A stretch of DNA of 64,000 bases from Verrucomicrobiota bacterium (lineage in GTDB: Bacteria > Auribacterota > JABMQX01 > JAFGEW01), in NCBI GenBank assembly GCA_016931415.1, contig JAFGEW010000105.1, positions 1 to 64,000 of the forward strand, given 5' to 3'. Positions 3,711 through 39,343 of this stretch are shown here, in pieces. The position numbers and the translations under genes are program-made. How positions within the stretch are numbered: the first letter of the stretch is position 1; every line of letters starts with the position of its first letter. The notes beneath the pieces were generated by a model, which saw only the letters and a program-made list of their open reading frames with translations, searched no databases and was not told the origin of the DNA.

Positions 3711-4926
3711 GTTGTTGCGTCTCACAGTCGGGGTGCTGTTGTCGTGCTCCGTCCTGGGCGCCGTCGCGCCGGCGCGTGCGGCCGAGCCGATGCCCGGCGG
3801 CAGCGAGATGAGCACGGTACGCAGCTACGGCGGGCAGTTCGTTGTCACGGCGCCCGACGTCGAGTACGCGAGCGTTCTGGCGCGGCGTTGCGAGCGGATC
3901 ACGGAGGCCGTGGGGCGCCGGCTCGGCCTGCGCGGCCAATGGGACGGCAGGGCGTCGGTCTGGGTGCGCACGCGTACGGTCGAGGGCCCCAACGGGCCGG
4001 AGACGGTCTGGGACGCCGGGGTAAGCCGCAAGGACGTCACGCGCGCGGCGACCGGGCTGTGGTTTGGTCAGGTTGAGGAGTTTCTCGAGCTAGCCGTGAC
4101 CTACCACGTCCTGCGCGACATTGCCGAGGTGTCGGCGGCCGCCAACGGCGGCACGCTCGAGGGCCGCCCGATCCCATTCTGGCTGACGGCGGGTCTGGCG
4201 CAACTCCTCGACACCGAGCACCGGCTCGAGCTGTTTCGCACGACGGCGACCGCCATCGAGGAGAAGCGATCGTTCCTGCTCAAAGATCTCTTCGAGCACG
4301 ATGGGGAGTCTGCCGACGCGCGCGGCGCGCCCGACGTCGAGCAACGCGCGATCTTCCTCCAGCAATCGGCGACGGTCGTTGACTTCCTGCTTGGTTCGAA
4401 GCGCGGCGCCCAGCGGCTGCTCACCTCGCTCCAGCAGCTTCATCGGCGCAGCGGGTTCACGTTCTCGCTGCGGTGGGAGTATCGCGACCTCTATCCGACG
4501 CTCGACGCGATGCAGGCGGCGTGGGAGCAGTACGTGCACGAGCGGCCGCTCCACGTGCTGAGCGAAGGCCGTTTTTCGCTCGCGCAGACGGAAGCACGCC
4601 TCGAAGAGATCTTGCGCGTGACGATCCCGGTGATCGATCCGGAGACGATTGAAACATCGGAGGTGGTGACCGATTTCGAGGGGCTCTCGACACACAAGAA
4701 CCGGCCCGTCGCGGTGCGGATCGCAAACGAGAAGGCCGAGCAAGTGCTCCAGCTCACGCTGCGGAGCGCATCGGAGTTCAAGCCGGCGCTCGAGGCGTAC
4801 GCGCGCGCGCTCACAGCGATCCGCGACGGCGAGCGCGGCAGCTTCAAGCGCTGGTACAAGCGCGCCGGGCGCGAACACGAGGCGGTGCGCAGGCTGCCGT
4901 ACTTCACGACGGGCGAGGCGGACTGA
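3703..4926 (+). CDS. Secreted hypothetical protein, degenerate peptidase-MA-like
   Basis: A 407-residue protein with a clear signal peptide ([16 protein letters not shown], probable cleavage after ARA near residue 27). Around residues 125-175 it has [12 protein letters not shown] followed by [13 protein letters not shown]. This resembles the layout of peptidase-MA-like gluzincins, where a HExxH helix is followed by a P-x-WLxEGxA helix, but both catalytic histidines and the glutamates are missing. I therefore infer a non-catalytic, perhaps binding, version. It starts inside the end of dtd and its stop overlaps the surE start by one base. No other domain is recognised. Confidence 0.75.
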
Positions 4927-5696
4927 TGCGTCTTGTGGCGACAAACGATGACGGCATTCACGCGCCGGGGCTCGGGGCGCTCGTCGAGGCGCTCGCGCCG
5001 CTCGGCGAAGTCGTCGTCGTGGCGCCTAACCGGGAGCGGAGCGCCACGGCGCACGCCATTACGCTGCACGAGCCGTTGCGCGTCGAGAAGGTGAGCCGCA
5101 ACGGGGCGTTCTTCGGTCATGCCGTGAGCGGCACGCCGGTCGATTGCGTCAAGCTCGCCGTCGTGTCGCTGCTTGCCGAGCGCCCCGATTTCCTCGTCTC
5201 GGGCATCAATCCGGGCACGAACGTGGGCACGAACGCGATCTATTCGGGCACGGTGTCGGCCGCCCTCGAGGGGGCCATGAACGGTATCACGTCGCTCGCG
5301 GTCAGCATCGACGCCTCGGGCGACGTGTCCGGCGACGAGCTCGACTACGTGGGGGCGGCGGCATTCACGCGGCGGTTCATCGAGCGGCTCGCCTCGGGCG
5401 GGCTGGCGCGGCCGACCGCGTTCAATATCAACCTGCCCAACTTGCCGGCTGACCGGATCAAGGGCATGCGGTTCACCCATCAGGGCCGGCTCATGTTCCG
5501 CGAGGAGTTCCACGAGCGCACCGACCCGCAGCGGCGCGTCTACTACTGGCTCGGCGGCGAGCTGCCCGTGTCCGACGACGGCGCCCATGCCGACAGCACC
5601 GCCGTGCTCGACGGCTACATCGCCGTCACCCCCCTCCATTACGACCTGACCGACTACGACGCACTCGATCAGATGCGCGCGTGGGAGGTGGAGTAG
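4926..5696 (+). CDS. surE: 5'/3'-nucleotidase SurE
   Basis: SurE is a metal-dependent survival-protein phosphatase that dephosphorylates nucleoside 5'- and 3'-monophosphates and short polyphosphates. The 256-residue protein carries the metal site NDDGIHAPGL, VVVAPNRERSATAHAIT, the VSGTPVDCVK stretch and SGINPGTNVGTNAIYSGTV, all at the expected places, and has normal length. The start ATG overlaps the TGA of the previous gene by one base. It is the last gene of the run that begins with hisA; no terminator is visible after it. Confidence 0.95.
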   Translation: MRLVATNDDGIHAPGLGALVEALAPLGEVVVVAPNRERSATAHAITLHEPLRVEKVSRNGAFFGHAVSGTPVDCVKLAVVSLLAERPDFLVSGINPGTNVGTNAIYSGTVSAALEGAMNGITSLAVSIDASGDVSGDELDYVGAAAFTRRFIERLASGGLARPTAFNINLPNLPADRIKGMRFTHQGRLMFREEFHERTDPQRRVYYWLGGELPVSDDGAHADSTAVLDGYIAVTPLHYDLTDYDALDQMRAWEVE

Positions 5697-5743
5697 GCGG
5701 GTTCTGTCGCCGTTATGGGGCTTCGATGCGTTGTGTCGCCACG

Positions 5744-5793
5744 AACCTGGGGATGACGCCCCGGGCGAAGCTCCGCCGGGCCTTCGGCCTTCC
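5744..5793. repeat. Degenerate intergenic hairpin repeat
   Basis: In the 257-base gap after surE, CCTGGGG pairs imperfectly with CCCCGGG across a short loop and is followed by a GGCC-rich dyad (gggccttcggcctt). It resembles the copy at 31955-31975. No gene is visible in this gap. Confidence 0.4.
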
Positions 5794-5953
5794 ATGAGTA
5801 GGGCTTCGAGAGGCGGCGCTTTGCGTGCGACGGGGCGGCCGTTCGCGGTGGGGCCTTCACGCGAATGGCTTCCCGTGGTATGTGTATGTCGAGGGCTGGA
5901 GCAATGTGGTTGTCTTGCGCTCAGGGCGTGCCCGGTCTTGTGGAGGGCGGCGC

Positions 5954-12867: not shown

Positions 12868-15320
12868 GCATCCGCATTGACGACGAGGCGCGGGCCGTCT
12901 GGCTGAGCGTGCGCGACCTCGCGGGCGTCGACGCGCCGGCAGGCAGCATCTCGGCCGAGGGTATGCCGGCTGCACGCGCGGCGCTGGGGCGCGAGGTTCA
13001 CGAGGCCCATCAGCATTCACGTGCCTCAACGCACAAAACCTTCCGCAGCGAGCACACGCTCAAGCACTCGTTCCCGTTCGACGGCTGGACGGTCCACGTC
13101 CACGGTCGGATCGACGGGCTCTACAGGCACCGAGGGCGGTCCATCGTCGAGGAGGTCAAGAGTGTCCGCTCGCTCGAGCGCGCCGTCGAGCGGCTCGACG
13201 GCGACGTGTATGGCGCCTGGCTGCTCCAGCTTCGGCTCTACGTGTTGTTTCTCGCGCGCGAGACGGGGCGCGCAGCGGACGGGGTGCTTATCCTGATCGA
13301 AGTGCGGACCGGCGAGTCGCGGCGGTTGCCCGTCGAAGTCAATGAGGCGGAGCTCGATGCGATCATCGGCGCGCGCGTGCGTACGATCATTGAGGAGCAC
13401 GAGGCGCTCACGGCGTGGCGCGAGCGGCTTGCCGAGCTGGCGGACAACGTACCGTTTCCGTTCGCGGCGATGCGCCCGCATCAGGACGAGATGGTGCGCC
13501 GCATCGAGGAGGCGCTCGAGTCGCGCTCGCACCTGCTCGTGTCGGCGCCGACGGGCATCGGGAAGACCGCCGGTGCGTTGTGGCCCGTCGTGCGCTTCGC
13601 CATGCGCCGGGGTCTGCGCGTGTTCTTCCTCACATCGAAGACGACCCAGCAGCGCCTCGTCATCGAGACGCTGCAGCGCATGCAGCCGGCGGAGGACGGA
13701 TTTGTTGCGCTCCACCTTCGTGCGCGCGAGAAGATGTGCCCGAACGACGTCTACTTCTGCCACCCCGAGTTCTGCCGCTACGCGCGCGGCTACGGGGAAC
13801 GACTGGCCGGGTCGACGGCGATTGCCGATCTCACCGCGCGCGGGGTCATCACGCCGGAGGACTGCTACGACGTGGCCACGGCGGAGACCCTGTGTCCGTT
13901 CGAGCTCGCGCTCGACGTGTCGCTCAAGGCGGACGTGATCGTCTGCGACTACAACTACGTGTTCGATCCGGCCGTGTACCTGCGCCGGTTCTTTGACGAG
14001 CGCCGCTCCGACGACACCGTGCTTGTTATTGACGAAGCGCACAACCTGTACGCGCGCGGACGCGAGTACTACTCACCCGAGCTGCACCGGGCCTCGCTTC
14101 GGGAGGTGGCGGACGCGGCGCACCAGTCGGGTGCGCCCGTGATGGCGCGACTGGCCGAGTGGTGTGAGGCGGTGGACCAGAAGCTCGTTGAGATCGCGGG
14201 CGAGGTGGGCGAGGAGAACGAGCGACCGCCGAAGTACCTCGTGGAGCCCGACGCGGCGTTCTTCAGCGGGCAGCAGACGCTGCTCGATGACATTCTCGTC
14301 GAGTACGCCGAGCACTGTCGGGCCAACGCGACGCTGGGGCCGAACGACCCGGTGTGGGAGCTGTACTATGCCTTTCGGGCGTTGACGAACGTTCTCGAGC
14401 TCGGCGGTGAGGAGTTCTCGGCGATCTGGGACGGCGCGGCTGGCGGGGTGACGAGCGGGGGCCGCCTCAAGGTGCTGTGTAAGGACCCGTCGCGACAGCT
14501 CGGGGAGCGGCTCGACGGCTGCTACGCGGCGCTCGGCATGTCGGCCACGCTCGTGCCGCTGACGTTCTACCGCGACGTGCTCGGCTTCGATCGCGACCGC
14601 ACCCGGCTCGTGGCGTTGCCGTCGCCGTTTCCCAAGGAGCACCGGCGCGTGCTGGTGGTGGGCGACGTCTCGACACGCTACCGGCACCGGTCGCAGTCGC
14701 TCGAACGCGTGGCGCGCGTGATCGAGCAGGTTGCCGCCGCCCGCCGTGGCAACACGATTGTCTTCTTCCCGAGCTTCGAGTACCTCGAAGCGGTGGCCGC
14801 GCACGTCGTGCCGGCGTCGGCCGTCGTGTTGCGGCAGGAGCGGTTCATGTCCGAGCGCGCGCGCGGCGAACTGCTCGACCGCCTGCGTCAAGAACGCGGC
14901 AACCACGTCGTGCTTGCCGTGCAGGGCGGGATCTTTGCCGAGGGCGTAGACTACCCCGGGGGGATGCTTATCGGCGTGATCGTCGTCGGGCCGGGCTTGC
15001 CGCGGGTGTCCTTCGAGCAGGAGCTGATGCGCGAGTACTACGCCGAGCGCTACGAGATGGGGTTCGAGTACGCCTACCTCTACGTCGGCATGAACCGCGT
15101 GATCCAGTCGGTCGGCCGGCTTATCCGCTCCGAGCACGACGCGGGAGTCGCCGTGCTGATCGGCCAGCGGTTCACCACGCCGCCGTACGCGGAGCTCATG
15201 CCGCCGGACTGGTACGAAGGCTCGCCGCTCGAACTGGTGACCTATGACGTGGCGGGGGACGTAGCGCGCTTCTGGGAGGAGATCGCCGCCGAGGAGGCGT
15301 TACGTCGTGACGAGGCGTAG
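12864..15320 (+). CDS. XPD/DinG-type superfamily 2 helicase with N-terminal PD-(D/E)XK nuclease domain
   Basis: An 818-residue fusion. Residues about 40-190 have the RecB/Cas4-like nuclease pattern: Asp84 in GRIDG, Glu97-x-Lys99 in VEEVKS and the QLRLY motif at 122-126. Residues from about 195 are a Rad3/XPD helicase: Walker A APTGIGKT (228-235), four iron-sulphur cysteines (292, 299, 304, 344), DEAH box at 390-393 and motif VI QSVGRLIRS near the end. Such enzymes unwind 5'-tailed DNA, and the nuclease could process the product. The gene is translationally coupled to the GlcF-like gene (4-base overlap), and its last 21 bases overlap the 3' end of recG on the other strand. DNA repair is the inferred role. 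Confidence 0.88.
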   Translation: MSIRIDDEARAVWLSVRDLAGVDAPAGSISAEGMPAARAALGREVHEAHQHSRASTHKTFRSEHTLKHSFPFDGWTVHVHGRIDGLYRHRGRSIVEEVKSVRSLERAVERLDGDVYGAWLLQLRLYVLFLARETGRAADGVLILIEVRTGESRRLPVEVNEAELDAIIGARVRTIIEEHEALTAWRERLAELADNVPFPFAAMRPHQDEMVRRIEEALESRSHLLVSAPTGIGKTAGALWPVVRFAMRRGLRVFFLTSKTTQQRLVIETLQRMQPAEDGFVALHLRAREKMCPNDVYFCHPEFCRYARGYGERLAGSTAIADLTARGVITPEDCYDVATAETLCPFELALDVSLKADVIVCDYNYVFDPAVYLRRFFDERRSDDTVLVIDEAHNLYARGREYYSPELHRASLREVADAAHQSGAPVMARLAEWCEAVDQKLVEIAGEVGEENERPPKYLVEPDAAFFSGQQTLLDDILVEYAEHCRANATLGPNDPVWELYYAFRALTNVLELGGEEFSAIWDGAAGGVTSGGRLKVLCKDPSRQLGERLDGCYAALGMSATLVPLTFYRDVLGFDRDRTRLVALPSPFPKEHRRVLVVGDVSTRYRHRSQSLERVARVIEQVAAARRGNTIVFFPSFEYLEAVAAHVVPASAVVLRQERFMSERARGELLDRLRQERGNHVVLAVQGGIFAEGVDYPGGMLIGVIVVGPGLPRVSFEQELMREYYAERYEMGFEYAYLYVGMNRVIQSVGRLIRSEHDAGVAVLIGQRFTTPPYAELMPPDWYEGSPLELVTYDVAGDVARFWEEIAAEEALRRDEA

Positions 15321-33159: not shown

Positions 33160-33213
33160 CCACGGAGGTCACGGAGAGCACGGAGAGAATGCCCACCTCC
33201 GTGCTCTCCGTGG
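33160..33213. repeat. 'cacggag' inverted repeat, copy 1
   Basis: A perfect 16-bp stem (33170-33185 with 33197-33212) and an 11-nt loop, built from repeats of cacggag. It lies 24 bases after the stop of the LarA-like gene and could also end that transcript. Related copies are at 34570-34640 and 35801-35830. Confidence 0.7.
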
Positions 33214-35800: not shown

Positions 35801-35830
35801 ACCACGGGGCCACGGAGAACACGGGGCACG
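35801..35830. repeat. 'cacggag' repeat, copy 3 (one arm only)
   Basis: Three to four direct units of the cacgg(a/g)g kind (accacggggccacggagaac and on), without the matching second arm. It marks the edge of the scrambled Rhs region. Confidence 0.5.
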
Positions 35831-35933
35831 GCTCGATGCGCGGGACGTGGAGATGGAGCTATGGATCGGAATGAGGCACTCCGCATCATCCCGGGCAACA
35901 GCGACTCCCCGGTCACGTCGTTACCTTTCGACT

Positions 35934-36107
35934 CTACCCGATCCCCCCGCGCGTCGTCGACGCGTCCGGGTATTCGGTCGACATGAGCCGCCCGAGGTTG
36001 TCATAGACGAACGTCGTCTTGCCGCTCTCGTCGGCCATCGACACAGCGTCAGGTCCCGGCGTCACCAGTCTGGCGCGAGAGTCCGAAGAGAACAGCAGGT
36101 GCGGTTC
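35934..36107 (-). pseudogene. Rhs/YD-repeat fragment on the minus strand
   Basis: Translation of the minus strand gives a 57-codon stretch with the YD-repeat signature SGKTTFVYDNLGRLMSTEY, preceded by VTPGPDAVSMADE. It is bounded by a stop at 36110 and ends at a TAG at 35936. It has no start codon or ribosome-binding site and cannot be a gene on its own. A larger Rhs fragment on the opposite strand lies 2.3 kb away (38375-39343), so an ancestral Rhs gene or gene pair has been broken and rearranged here. Confidence 0.75.
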
Positions 36108-36132
36108 TCAGGCTTGGTGCACGCGTCGGGCG

Positions 36133-36744
36133 CTAGTCGACGAGGCGTTTGAACTGCTCCAGGTGGCGTATCGACTCGAAAGACGGTTCGGTCTTTGCCT
36201 CCGTCTTGGTTGTTGGGTCGACCCGGATCGCGCAGTCCAGATGGCGGAGCGCCTCCTGATGTCTTCCGTTCTCGGCATACAGGCACGCTGGATTATAGAC
36301 AACACCGGGGTGGGTTCGCTGCTCTTCCCTGATCTTCGCGAGCTCCGCATTCGCAGGGCGCCATGCCTCTTGCTTGTCGTCGATGGCCTTGAGCAAGGAA
36401 CAGGCGTAGGCGACACGCGCGGGTGCCATATCCGGCTCTCGCGACAGTGCCTTCTCATATGCCCGCAGGGTCTTCTCATACCGGCCGCTGGAGTGATAGC
36501 AGACGCCAAGGTAAGCGTAGTCGAGCGCGGTCTGCCGGACGGGAAGCTTGACGCATTCCCGCAGGCAGTCGATGGCCTTTTCGTCTTCGCGCCGCTCAAG
36601 CAGATCGATGGCTTGCGTTCGCAGCTCAGTGGTTCGCTCCGCCGGAGTCTGTTCCTCCGCAGCCTGTCTGTCGCGCGTGACGTACCAGACGGCTCCACCG
36701 CAACACACGAGGATGAGAAGCACCACTATCTTTCTTGAGTTCAT
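36133..36744 (-). CDS. TPR-repeat protein with N-terminal membrane anchor
   Basis: A 203-residue protein. ATG 36744 follows GAGGAGG, which decides the start; the frame upstream is open for 41 more codons but without a start signal. Residues 5-22 (KIVVLLILVCCGGAVWYV) are a membrane anchor or signal sequence. Residues about 40-195 are tetratricopeptide-like repeats (YLGVCYHSSGRYEKTLRAYEKAL and ACLYAENGRHQEALRHLDCAI). The C-terminus ends in HLEQFKRLVD. By eye its codon use is less GC-biased than in the flanking housekeeping genes. It lies inside the Rhs-debris island and could be part of its cargo; its partner is unknown. Confidence 0.72.
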   Translation of the reverse strand: MNSRKIVVLLILVCCGGAVWYVTRDRQAAEEQTPAERTTELRTQAIDLLERREDEKAIDCLRECVKLPVRQTALDYAYLGVCYHSSGRYEKTLRAYEKALSREPDMAPARVAYACSLLKAIDDKQEAWRPANAELAKIREEQRTHPGVVYNPACLYAENGRHQEALRHLDCAIRVDPTTKTEAKTEPSFESIRHLEQFKRLVD

Positions 36745-37071
36745 CTTTGCCTCCTCGGGCTCAGCGGCCGCGCACGGGCGGCATCTCTGGCACTGCGCCG
36801 CCGCAGTCTCAGCACATATCCAGAGACGACAGGCAGCATACTCCGCTGGCTGCGCCGGCATCTTCATCGGCAGGCCGTCACAAGCGCGCCAAGGTTAGCC
36901 AGGCGAGCACGGACGGTGGCGGAGTAGCGTCCAGACTTGCCCGCCTCGACGTGCTATGGTCTGCGGTAGGTAGAACAGCAGCCGTGTCTGCACCGAGCCC
37001 TGGCCTGGGGAGACTTGCACCCAAGGTGGCCGTGCGCAATGGACGTCCTGTCCTGGACATGCGTCGTTGCG
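36745..37071. other. Non-coding gap, nothing recognised
   Basis: 327 bases between two minus-strand genes. Apart from the ribosome-binding site at its left edge I see no promoter with both elements, no strong hairpin and no gene-like frame. Confidence 0.4.
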
Positions 37072-37965
37072 CTACCTCTGCCATCCTTGTTTATTGCTGA
37101 AAGTGTCGTACTCGATGCTCGGCAGATAGGTCATCCGCGAGCCTGTTTTGGCCTCGTATGCGTAAGATGGCAGGTGCAGGAGGACCTCAAAGCGTTCCTC
37201 CTGAGGCATGAGGTTCGGTTTCGAGATGAGCTCCTCGTAGAACTGCCGCCCGCGAGCGACGGCCGCACAGCGGGCATACAAGAAATCGTCTGGTGAGAAG
37301 TAGCTGGACCCATACGCTCCACGGCCCATGTGACGCGCGTGTCTCTCGGTGTCCAGGAGAGACAGCTTCCTGGCGAGCTGCTCTTGGAAGCCACAGATCT
37401 CGTTCTCGGAGAGGCGAGCCAGAGCCTCGAGAGCTGGCTGAAGGATCGCCTCTTCGCAGGAAGCCCGCCAGTCCAGCACTCCGATGACGGCCCAGAATCG
37501 ATCTTCATCCAAGGCACAGCATCCTGCCTCCGCGCCCCTGCTGGGGCGTTCTTTCTCCGCCATCGTCTCTGCCTCGCACGCTTGTCGATCGTGTGCCCAT
37601 CTCCACTCGCAATACGCCTCTTGTCCTATCCTCTCGGGCCATTGACCTGAGTACGCCGAGGTGTCCAGGCACCTTTCTTCATCCGTAAGAGGGACGTTCC
37701 CGATACACCGAACCGATGCAGGGGGGCTTCCTTCAACCCAGAAAAGGCACGGGTCGTCCTTGAAGCGGAAGCGGTTCCTTCTCTGGATCTGCCGTAACCT
37801 GTCGTCATCAAGCGAGGGGGGCACATCATCCAAGTAGGTGGTTGTTGCCACCAATAGCGCTCCTTCACACTTGCGCAGGACGCGGATGGCACCGAACCGA
37901 CCATCCGGACTCGGCGCGGCAAGGACATCACCCTCTTCAATAGGCGGGCGACCTGATCCGTCCAT
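37072..37965 (-). CDS. Imm26-like plus DUF4240 two-domain protein (candidate immunity protein)
   Basis: A 297-residue soluble protein. Residues 10-95 (EGDVLAAPSPDGRFGAIRVL) resemble Imm26-type immunity domains, which begin with a GDVFAIPL-DGRYGxGRV pattern. Residues 157-275 match DUF4240: FWAVIGVLDWR, LARLSENEICGFQEQL, YFSPDDFLYARCAAVARG and a PNLMPQEERFE tail. Both domain types occur next to polymorphic toxins, and this gene lies between two Rhs fragments, so an orphan immunity role is a fair inference. There is no obvious Shine-Dalgarno before ATG 37965, which starts three bases after the end of a broken transposase frame. Third positions are less GC-rich than in the core genes. Confidence 0.65.
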   Translation of the reverse strand: MDGSGRPPIEEGDVLAAPSPDGRFGAIRVLRKCEGALLVATTTYLDDVPPSLDDDRLRQIQRRNRFRFKDDPCLFWVEGSPPASVRCIGNVPLTDEERCLDTSAYSGQWPERIGQEAYCEWRWAHDRQACEAETMAEKERPSRGAEAGCCALDEDRFWAVIGVLDWRASCEEAILQPALEALARLSENEICGFQEQLARKLSLLDTERHARHMGRGAYGSSYFSPDDFLYARCAAVARGRQFYEELISKPNLMPQEERFEVLLHLPSYAYEAKTGSRMTYLPSIEYDTFSNKQGWQR

Positions 37966-37968
37966 GGT

Positions 37969-38253
37969 CTATGGTCTCTTGTGTCTGCCCAATGAATGTC
38001 CCTCCGCATGCAGCCGTCCAGCGTTCTGCGCCTCCCCGATGGCGCGGCGCAGGCCGTCGGCCGTCTCCGGCACGGCGATCAGGTGGGCATGGTTGGGCAT
38101 GAGGCTGGAGGGCCACACCTCGACGCCGCAGCGCCCGCACCACTCGCGTAACTTGAGATCTTCGTCGGAAAAGAACGCGCGCAAGCAACGGTTGCCCCGC
38201 TGCATTACGTGATGCGGGAACCCGCGAGCCACTCTGCGCGCCAGCCTCGGCAT
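37969..38253 (-). pseudogene. Truncated REP-associated tyrosine transposase (RAYT)
   Basis: The 94-codon frame begins like a RAYT: MPRLARRVARGFPHHVMQRGN, written in part, then the HUH-type metal motif MPNHAHLIAVPE and DGLRRAIGEA. About ten residues are missing between FFSDED and LREWCGRCGVEVW. After AIGEA the expected HRRYTR and the C-terminal half with the catalytic tyrosine are lost and replaced by unrelated residues. It is therefore a dead copy. Full-length relatives are about 130-230 residues and mobilise palindromic REP elements, which the window also contains. Confidence 0.8.
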
Positions 38254-38374
38254 GTCGAGAGCCTAGCTCAACTCGGTCCGCCGGGCAAGCAAGCAGCAAT
38301 TGCGTCGTACGCAGAGCGGCGGGCCGACCGGCAACTGCATCCCGTGCAATGCGTATGGTATCCCTCGACTCTGA

Positions 38375-39343
38375 CAGTCGGGCAACTCGCTGTTGCAGTT
38401 GACGTACACGTATGATAAGGTGGGGAACCGGCTGACGAAGAAGTACGACAACGACGCGGGCCGGGTCGAGACCTACAGGGTGAACGGCTACAACCAGCTC
38501 ACGGCGGTCGAGGGGACGGCGCGCGCGTACACGAACGTGTGCGGGCTGATCGACGAGGCGAACGTGGCTGCGGTGACGGTCGAGAACCTCACGGCGGAGA
38601 CGGAGGCGGCGCGCGTGGACCTTGCGCACGGGTTCTTCATCGGCCGCAAGCTCGAGCTGCAGAGCGGGTCGAACAGCATCGAGGTGACCGCCGTGGACAA
38701 GGCGGGCAACTCGACCACCGTGCCCGTCTCGCCCGAGACGCACACGATCACCCAGAACGAAGACATCGACGTGCAGTTCGAGTACGACGTGCGCGGCAAC
38801 ATGGTGCTGAAGGAAGTCTGGAACGGCGCGTCGTACGACGTCAAGGAGCGCTACTTCTACACGGGCGACAACCTGATCGAGTACATCTGGTACGCGTCGG
38901 GCGAAAACGACGGCAAACATCCGCACTTCGTGTACGACGGGCTGAGCCGCCGCGTGCGGGTCGAGTACGGCACCGTGACGCTCGATGGTGAGGCGTTCGA
39001 CTACTTCACCACGGCGACGACGAAGGAGTACGCGTTCCTCGGCACGCAGCCGGTCGCCGAGTACGACTACAACGCAGGCACGCAGGCGCGGACGCTGGTG
39101 CGCCAATACTACTGGGGCCTCGACATCGTGGCCGGCATCGGGGGGCTCCTGTACCAGGTCGCATTCAACTCGCCGGCCGAATACTATTACCACCACTACG
39201 ACGGCAGCGGCAATGTCACGGCAATCACGGACGCCGACAAAGCCGTCGTCGCTTACACCCATCACGCGCCCCGCCAACCACGAGCCGGCCAGGACCTGAC
39301 GCCCCCTCGAGGCGGGACTCCAGAGCGAAGGCATCGTGACTGA
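38375..39343 (+). pseudogene. Rhs-repeat protein fragment (C-terminal part of the YD core)
   Basis: About 320 codons after an in-frame stop at 38372-38374. YD-repeat units are clear: TYTYDKVGNRLTKKYDND, FEYDVRGNMVLKEVW, FVYDGLSRRVRVEY and YHHYDGSGNVTAITDADK, with an inserted Ig-like segment between the first two. Intact Rhs proteins have over 1000 residues, with an N-terminal signal or PAAR region and a toxin tip after the core. Both ends are missing here: the reading ends VVAYTHH where VAYYxYDAFG is expected and then runs into unrelated codons. TTG at 38393 could start it, but no ribosome-binding site is visible. Confidence 0.82.

Follow-up and report, generated by a model that had tools for sequence, protein, structure and literature searches.

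A two-domain Imm26-like/DUF4240 protein in a rearranged Rhs block as a candidate orphan immunity protein

The stretch of DNA analyzed here (the window; 64,000 nucleotides of contig C105 in a Verrucomicrobiota genome, G000) contains a 3.4-kb block (35934-39343) with broken Rhs genes at both ends, within which lies an intact gene for a two-domain protein of 297 amino acids, P0001 (37072-37965, minus strand). With moderate confidence, we read P0001 as an orphan immunity protein from a horizontally acquired Rhs tip-immunity module, probably directed against a URI-type nuclease. That P0001 has an immunity role we consider probable; its specificity toward a URI-fold nuclease is put forward more tentatively, at somewhat less than an even chance. 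The relatives of P0001 suggest protection against a DNA- or RNA-cutting toxin of competing bacteria. Orphan immunity in Rhs loci is a known kind of locus. A literature search found neither the fused Imm26-DUF4240 family nor its link to Tox-URI2 in print, and it returned no paper on DUF4240 and no function for it.

We propose that horizontal transfer brought in P0001 as the cargo of an Rhs tip-immunity module. Rearrangement would then have stripped away the toxin tip and the bulk of the Rhs gene, part of it bringing in a piece of a RAYT transposase gene, and P0001 would have stayed intact; the order of these events is our best reconstruction. The protein, presumably expressed, would bind a competitor's injected tip, most likely a nuclease with the URI (GIY-YIG-like) fold, chiefly through its Imm26-like domain, and DUF4240 may enlarge the binding surface or add a second specificity.

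The C-terminal half of P0001 is a DUF4240 domain (PF14024; residues 153-270, 37156-37509, minus strand), which matched far above the family cut-off (E 2.6e-19, 70.1 bits against a gathering cut-off of 27). Other members of the family differ from P0001 in carrying WGR (L034:1745-2461, L058:5418-6185), leucine-rich repeats (L035:8140-9513) or no partner domain. The N-terminal domain (residues 1-105; 37651-37965, minus strand) was assigned by profile-profile comparison. Its alignment was compared by hhalign with an alignment of 20 Imm26 domains, picked for variety from 33 listed matches (27 of 398 genomes had Imm26), and gave a probability of 97.7 and a score of 70.8 over 87 columns. The DUF4240 half, used as a control against Imm26, gave a probability of 0.64, and the highest values among 150 column-shuffled and 100 reversed or rotated controls were a probability of 7.03 and a score of 20.4. 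P0001 on its own reached 96.7 against the Imm26 profile, and the two staphylococcus-like relatives (taxon guessed) reached only 33 and 48. The best Pfam score for Imm26 (PF15428) among the relatives was that of the G512 copy (L068; residues 14-113, 17.9 bits, E 0.0039), below the cut-off of 23.3 bits. Judged by profile comparison, the N-terminal domain is related to Imm26, yet it is no member by Pfam standards, and we call it Imm26-like. An earlier note on this DNA, made from the sequence without database searches, had described an Imm26-like domain joined to DUF4240 in one chain and had asked for each half to be searched separately; DUF4240 and the cautious term "Imm26-like" hold, and a plain "Imm26" does not. 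An Imm26 search of the host genome itself gave no match, but its control gave no match either, which makes this negative uninformative.

The link to a toxin comes chiefly from a relative, P0010, at locus L053 of genome G237, which shares 30% identity with P0001 from end to end (7e-51). At this locus, a 917-residue Rhs open reading frame (ORF) with a Tox-GHH tip is followed by an SMI1/SUKH gene, a short gene on the opposite strand, an orphan Rhs core (4806-5918) with a Tox-URI2 tip at its residues 273-353 (E 1.1e-16), and P0010, which starts at 5941 on the same strand, 22 nucleotides after the tip gene. The gene directly behind an Rhs tip usually encodes the cognate immunity protein. This placement is also described in PMC3482391. 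The earlier note had proposed an immunity role for P0001; support for it comes from L053, where P0010 lies directly behind the Rhs/Tox-URI2 tip, and in the window itself no tip is left. At a second locus (L057, genome G239), a pre-toxin remnant (5687-5767; 44% identical over 27 residues, E 0.02) lies about 86 nucleotides ahead of a disrupted two-domain gene. As an observation apart, L053:1029-5918 is a textbook displaced-tip arrangement, in which Rhs/Tox-GHH and SUKH are followed by an orphan core with a different tip.

Imm26 is listed with Tox-URI1, and Tox-URI2 with Imm9, 12, 39, and 44, in PMC3482391, and PMC10833071 describes TipC of Yersinia as a protein with an Imm26 domain that protects against the DNase TepC. 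Imm26-type proteins are therefore already tied to URI-type or other nucleases, and L053, by its one intact pair, would tie the fused Imm26-DUF4240 form to the second URI clade. P0001 thus resembles Imm26 in an alignable N-terminal domain and in having relatives that, like those of Imm26, occur with nuclease toxins, whereas it differs in falling below Pfam detection and in carrying DUF4240 as a second domain.

The best relatives of P0001 (35-39% identical) are in Bacillota, the nearest being that of G512 (39%), and a search of 44 genomes from the phylum of the window found the window copy and no other. Plasmids of Priestia megaterium and Planococcus carry six copies that are 32-36% identical to P0001 over nearly its entire length, two of these copies being on MOBV plasmids, and a further relative lies on a chromosomal contig of Planococcus ruber. 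Relatives occur in seven of 261 genomes of an order and in five of 398 genomes of a class, with G237 in both sets; two of the seven from the order (G302 and G140) are without the first half, that of G239 is broken, and that of G135 matches the Planococcus kocurii plasmid copy in place. Searches with P0001 alone in a genome contig collection, and with P0001 and alignment A2 of its family in a viral contig collection, found no relative; a phage collection gave a match to the DUF4240 half only. At third codon positions, the G + C content of the Rhs fragment (0.93) and of hisG (0.94) is higher than that of P0001 (0.67), of the neighboring TPR gene (0.72), and of the gene behind the tip on contig C119 of the same genome (0.57). 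This contrast in composition is consistent with foreign cargo set in an Rhs backbone native to the genome.

The window belongs to a genome of 4.06 Mb in 134 contigs (98.9% complete, 4.5% contamination). From left to right, the block consists of an Rhs remnant, the TPR gene, the P0001 gene, a RAYT remnant, and an Rhs core fragment, and all five parts found support in searches, that for the RAYT part being weak. Profile and homology searches thereby confirmed what the earlier note had seen, namely Rhs fragments on opposite strands that flank TPR, Imm26-like/DUF4240, and RAYT genes. The left piece is a 44-residue Rhs (YD-repeat) core remnant (35937-36068, minus strand; RHS_repeat 23.4 bits, cut-off 22), which sits downstream of the P0001 and TPR genes. 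The right piece is an Rhs core fragment with an Ig-like insert (38378-39256, plus strand; RHS_repeat 24.3 bits, cut-off 22), which tblastn matched to three tandem Rhs modules on contig C50 of G000 (31-34% identity, E 3e-27 to 5e-24). Its homology stops at 39256, short of the conserved core end, and no complete Rhs protein with a tip is present.

Between the P0001 gene and the right Rhs piece lies a 94-residue ORF (37969-38253, minus strand) that matches Y1_Tnp at E 0.27 and 11.8 bits. The DNA at 38027-38371 is 73-76% identical to pieces on contigs C87 and C23 of the same genome, and the C87 copy runs on into a Y1_Tnp-like half (E 0.0017, 18.9 bits). Neither the window remnant nor its C87 relative reaches the Y1_Tnp cut-off of 23 bits, and it is from these weak matches together with family motifs that we take the ORF to be the remnant of a RAYT/Y1-type transposase. 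The RAYT homology runs as far as 38368-38371 and that to Rhs sets in at 38375-38378, which places the junction within about 10 nucleotides, although one Rhs query stretched leftwards to 38180 at low identity. Because the two homologies meet so closely, we regard the block as a rearranged mosaic and not as a locus merely short of its last part. The idea of a polymorphic-toxin locus that had lost its tip was therefore retained in part: the Rhs origin of the block stands, and simple tip loss from one locus was abandoned, since the right Rhs piece is oppositely oriented, the left one follows P0001 in the direction of transcription, and a RAYT piece occupies the junction. Like the orphan tip/immunity genes of Rhs loci described, for example, in PMC10539506 and PMC3967940, the window has a toxin-less immunity-type gene beside Rhs fragments; unlike them, it has these fragments on opposite strands and a RAYT remnant at the junction.

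Outside the window, we inspected 14 two-domain loci (L027-L033, L053, L054, L057, and L068-L071), among which four from Priestia, two Planococcus plasmids, and two staphylococcus-like ones are near copies. A toxin tip or pre-toxin remnant stands directly upstream in two of the 14 (L053 and L057), and an Imm33 or Imm53 gene lies within about 3.1 kb in three: Imm33 is 117 nucleotides upstream in L030 and about 3.1 kb off in L028, and L033 has Imm53 and YxiJ within 2.3 kb. Of 100 neighbors listed within 4 kb, 36 were scanned as a pool and some of the others singly; L032 and L071, the latter very like L069, were judged only by annotation or by eye. In the pooled Pfam scan of the 36, the 25 families listed out of 31 included no Imm or Tox family, and neither did the 25 listed out of 30 in a control scan with 19 of the 20 neighbors of DUF4240 loci without an Imm26-like part.

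Several observations weigh against P0001 being an orphan immunity protein with a URI-type target. In nine of the 14 loci, the scanned or annotated neighbors included no toxin and no named immunity family. The earlier note had been prepared to give up its reading should the two-domain protein be found in most cases apart from Rhs, toxin, or secretion genes, and by plain count it is; we treat this count as weak evidence against the reading and not as a refutation, because orphan immunity genes are expected away from toxins. The intact pairs of toxin and two-domain gene that we saw number one (L053), and no match to a toxin tip remnant was found within the window. When a second pair was sought on a Paenibacillus plasmid (L105), the gene that follows the toxin looked unrelated by eye, and tblastn with P0010 was silent there. 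On three Streptomyces-type plasmids, genes with DUF4240 alone stand without a toxin nearby. The N-terminal half of P0001 on its own matched nothing in Pfam and stayed under the Imm26 cut-off, and Imm26 is absent from the Tox-URI2 partners named in PMC3482391. That source also describes Imm26 as mostly alpha. In an AlphaFold2 model of P0001 built from four sequences, the N-terminal domain is beta-rich at low confidence (whole-chain mean predicted local distance difference test score, pLDDT, 64.5), which disagrees with this description; neither is decisive.

The nine loci with neither a toxin nor a named immunity gene, together with the six plasmid copies and the two MOBV plasmids among them, are what would be expected if P0001 were a mobile accessory protein with another role, such as that of a plasmid regulator or stress protein, in an Rhs setting by accident. 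We consider this unlikely, since it does not account for the kinship of the N-terminal domain to Imm26, for the L053 relative directly behind a Tox-URI2 tip, or for the Rhs pieces at both ends of the block. It is more doubtful still that P0001 is a polyimmunity protein in which each domain acts against a different toxin, so that losing the first partner did not end its use. DUF4240 does swap partners, being joined to an Imm26-like domain in P0001, to WGR in L034 and L058, and to leucine-rich repeats in L035, and PMC3482391 describes polyimmunity proteins; however, the plasmid DUF4240-only genes that we inspected are not beside toxins, and we saw no toxin paired with DUF4240 by itself. The P0001 family resembles the polyimmunity loci and proteins covered there in having relatives near Imm33, Imm53, and SMI1/SUKH genes and two conflict-type domains per chain, whereas the window differs from such loci in having one immunity-type gene. 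Very improbably, finally, P0001 could be a functionless passenger of a decaying island and itself on the way to loss, as its broken Rhs and RAYT neighbors, the lack of a clear ribosome-binding site upstream of its start by eye, and the already broken G239 relative might suggest, but its 297 codons are free of stops, it retains the conserved positions of the family, and the ratio of nonsynonymous to synonymous substitution rates between the neighboring TPR gene and its other copy is 0.28 (Nei-Gojobori, 203 codons).

If P0001 is indeed an orphan immunity protein, it would give DUF4240-carrying proteins their first testable function, add an immunity family for URI-fold nuclease toxins, and provide a clear case of a toxin module whose delivery gene decayed and whose protective gene survived, over a wide taxonomic distance. 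A wider proposal, which we regard as speculative and on balance unlikely, is that DUF4240 serves as a general adaptor of conflict systems with Imm26-like, WGR, or leucine-rich-repeat sensing parts. Imm26-DUF4240 would be an unrecognized anti-URI immunity family, exchanged between Bacillota and a distant phylum and retained as an orphan defense once the toxin was lost.

Structural comparisons added little on the domains of P0001. Residues 150-297 were modeled by AlphaFold2 as an all-helical DUF4240 domain (mean pLDDT 85.7, predicted template modeling score 0.84), for which the best VIA-align hit (Z 3.6, root-mean-square deviation 4.0, 94 residues) does not establish either a known or a new fold, and Foldseek gave no match at E <= 0.001 for either model. 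Residues 1-83 matched Tudor-type small beta barrels in VIA-align (Z 6.1, root-mean-square deviation 1.8, 49 residues); this region is of low confidence, and we drew no function from the match. Chitin deacetylase, the sole match when solved structures were searched by sequence with alignment A2, aligned across the linker at E 0.029 and was put down to chance.

At L105:4001-5695, a Tox-URI2-like tip is followed by a 243-residue protein that looks unrelated to P0001 by eye and then by an Imm53 gene, an arrangement that may represent another immunity type for this toxin. A match in Planococcus maritimus was likewise discarded as a further pair, as the pre-toxin part alone is shared and the gene behind it looked unrelated by eye.

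The TPR gene next to P0001 encodes a protein with an N-terminal hydrophobic segment (36133-36744, minus strand). Its ORF spans 36133-36867 (TPR_1 E 2.3e-14, TPR_END_plus E 7e-19), and Met42 (36744) was taken as the start because homology to its paralogue begins at residue 29. A single further copy was found in the 44 genomes of the phylum, on contig C119 of the same genome (80% DNA identity); it adjoins an Imm35 gene (E 1.1e-9) and comes after the end of an Rhs core and its tip (ORF 13387-14880, L014). From this context, the TPR gene seems to accompany immunity genes repeatedly in the Rhs islands of this genome.

The Ig-like insert of the right Rhs piece matches Glucodextran_B (E 5.8e-7) and Big_13 at residues 42-111 of ORF 38393-39343, and such an insert in the middle of an Rhs core seems unusual. 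The three tandem Rhs modules on contig C50 (1-8181, L016) have different tips, the second of which is weakly Peptidase_M91-like (E 7.7e-5). On contig C110 (L020:6085-7137, minus strand), the tip that follows an Rhs core end weakly resembles Ntox16 (E 1.5e-4), and behind it comes a 293-residue gene without Pfam matches. Near the left end of the block, window positions 35829-35925 correspond to C87:2644-2740, a dispersed repeat close to the RAYT piece of C87 itself, and a second dispersed repeat, of the type CCACGGAGATCACGGAGAGCACGGA, occurs at window positions 33160 and 34574.

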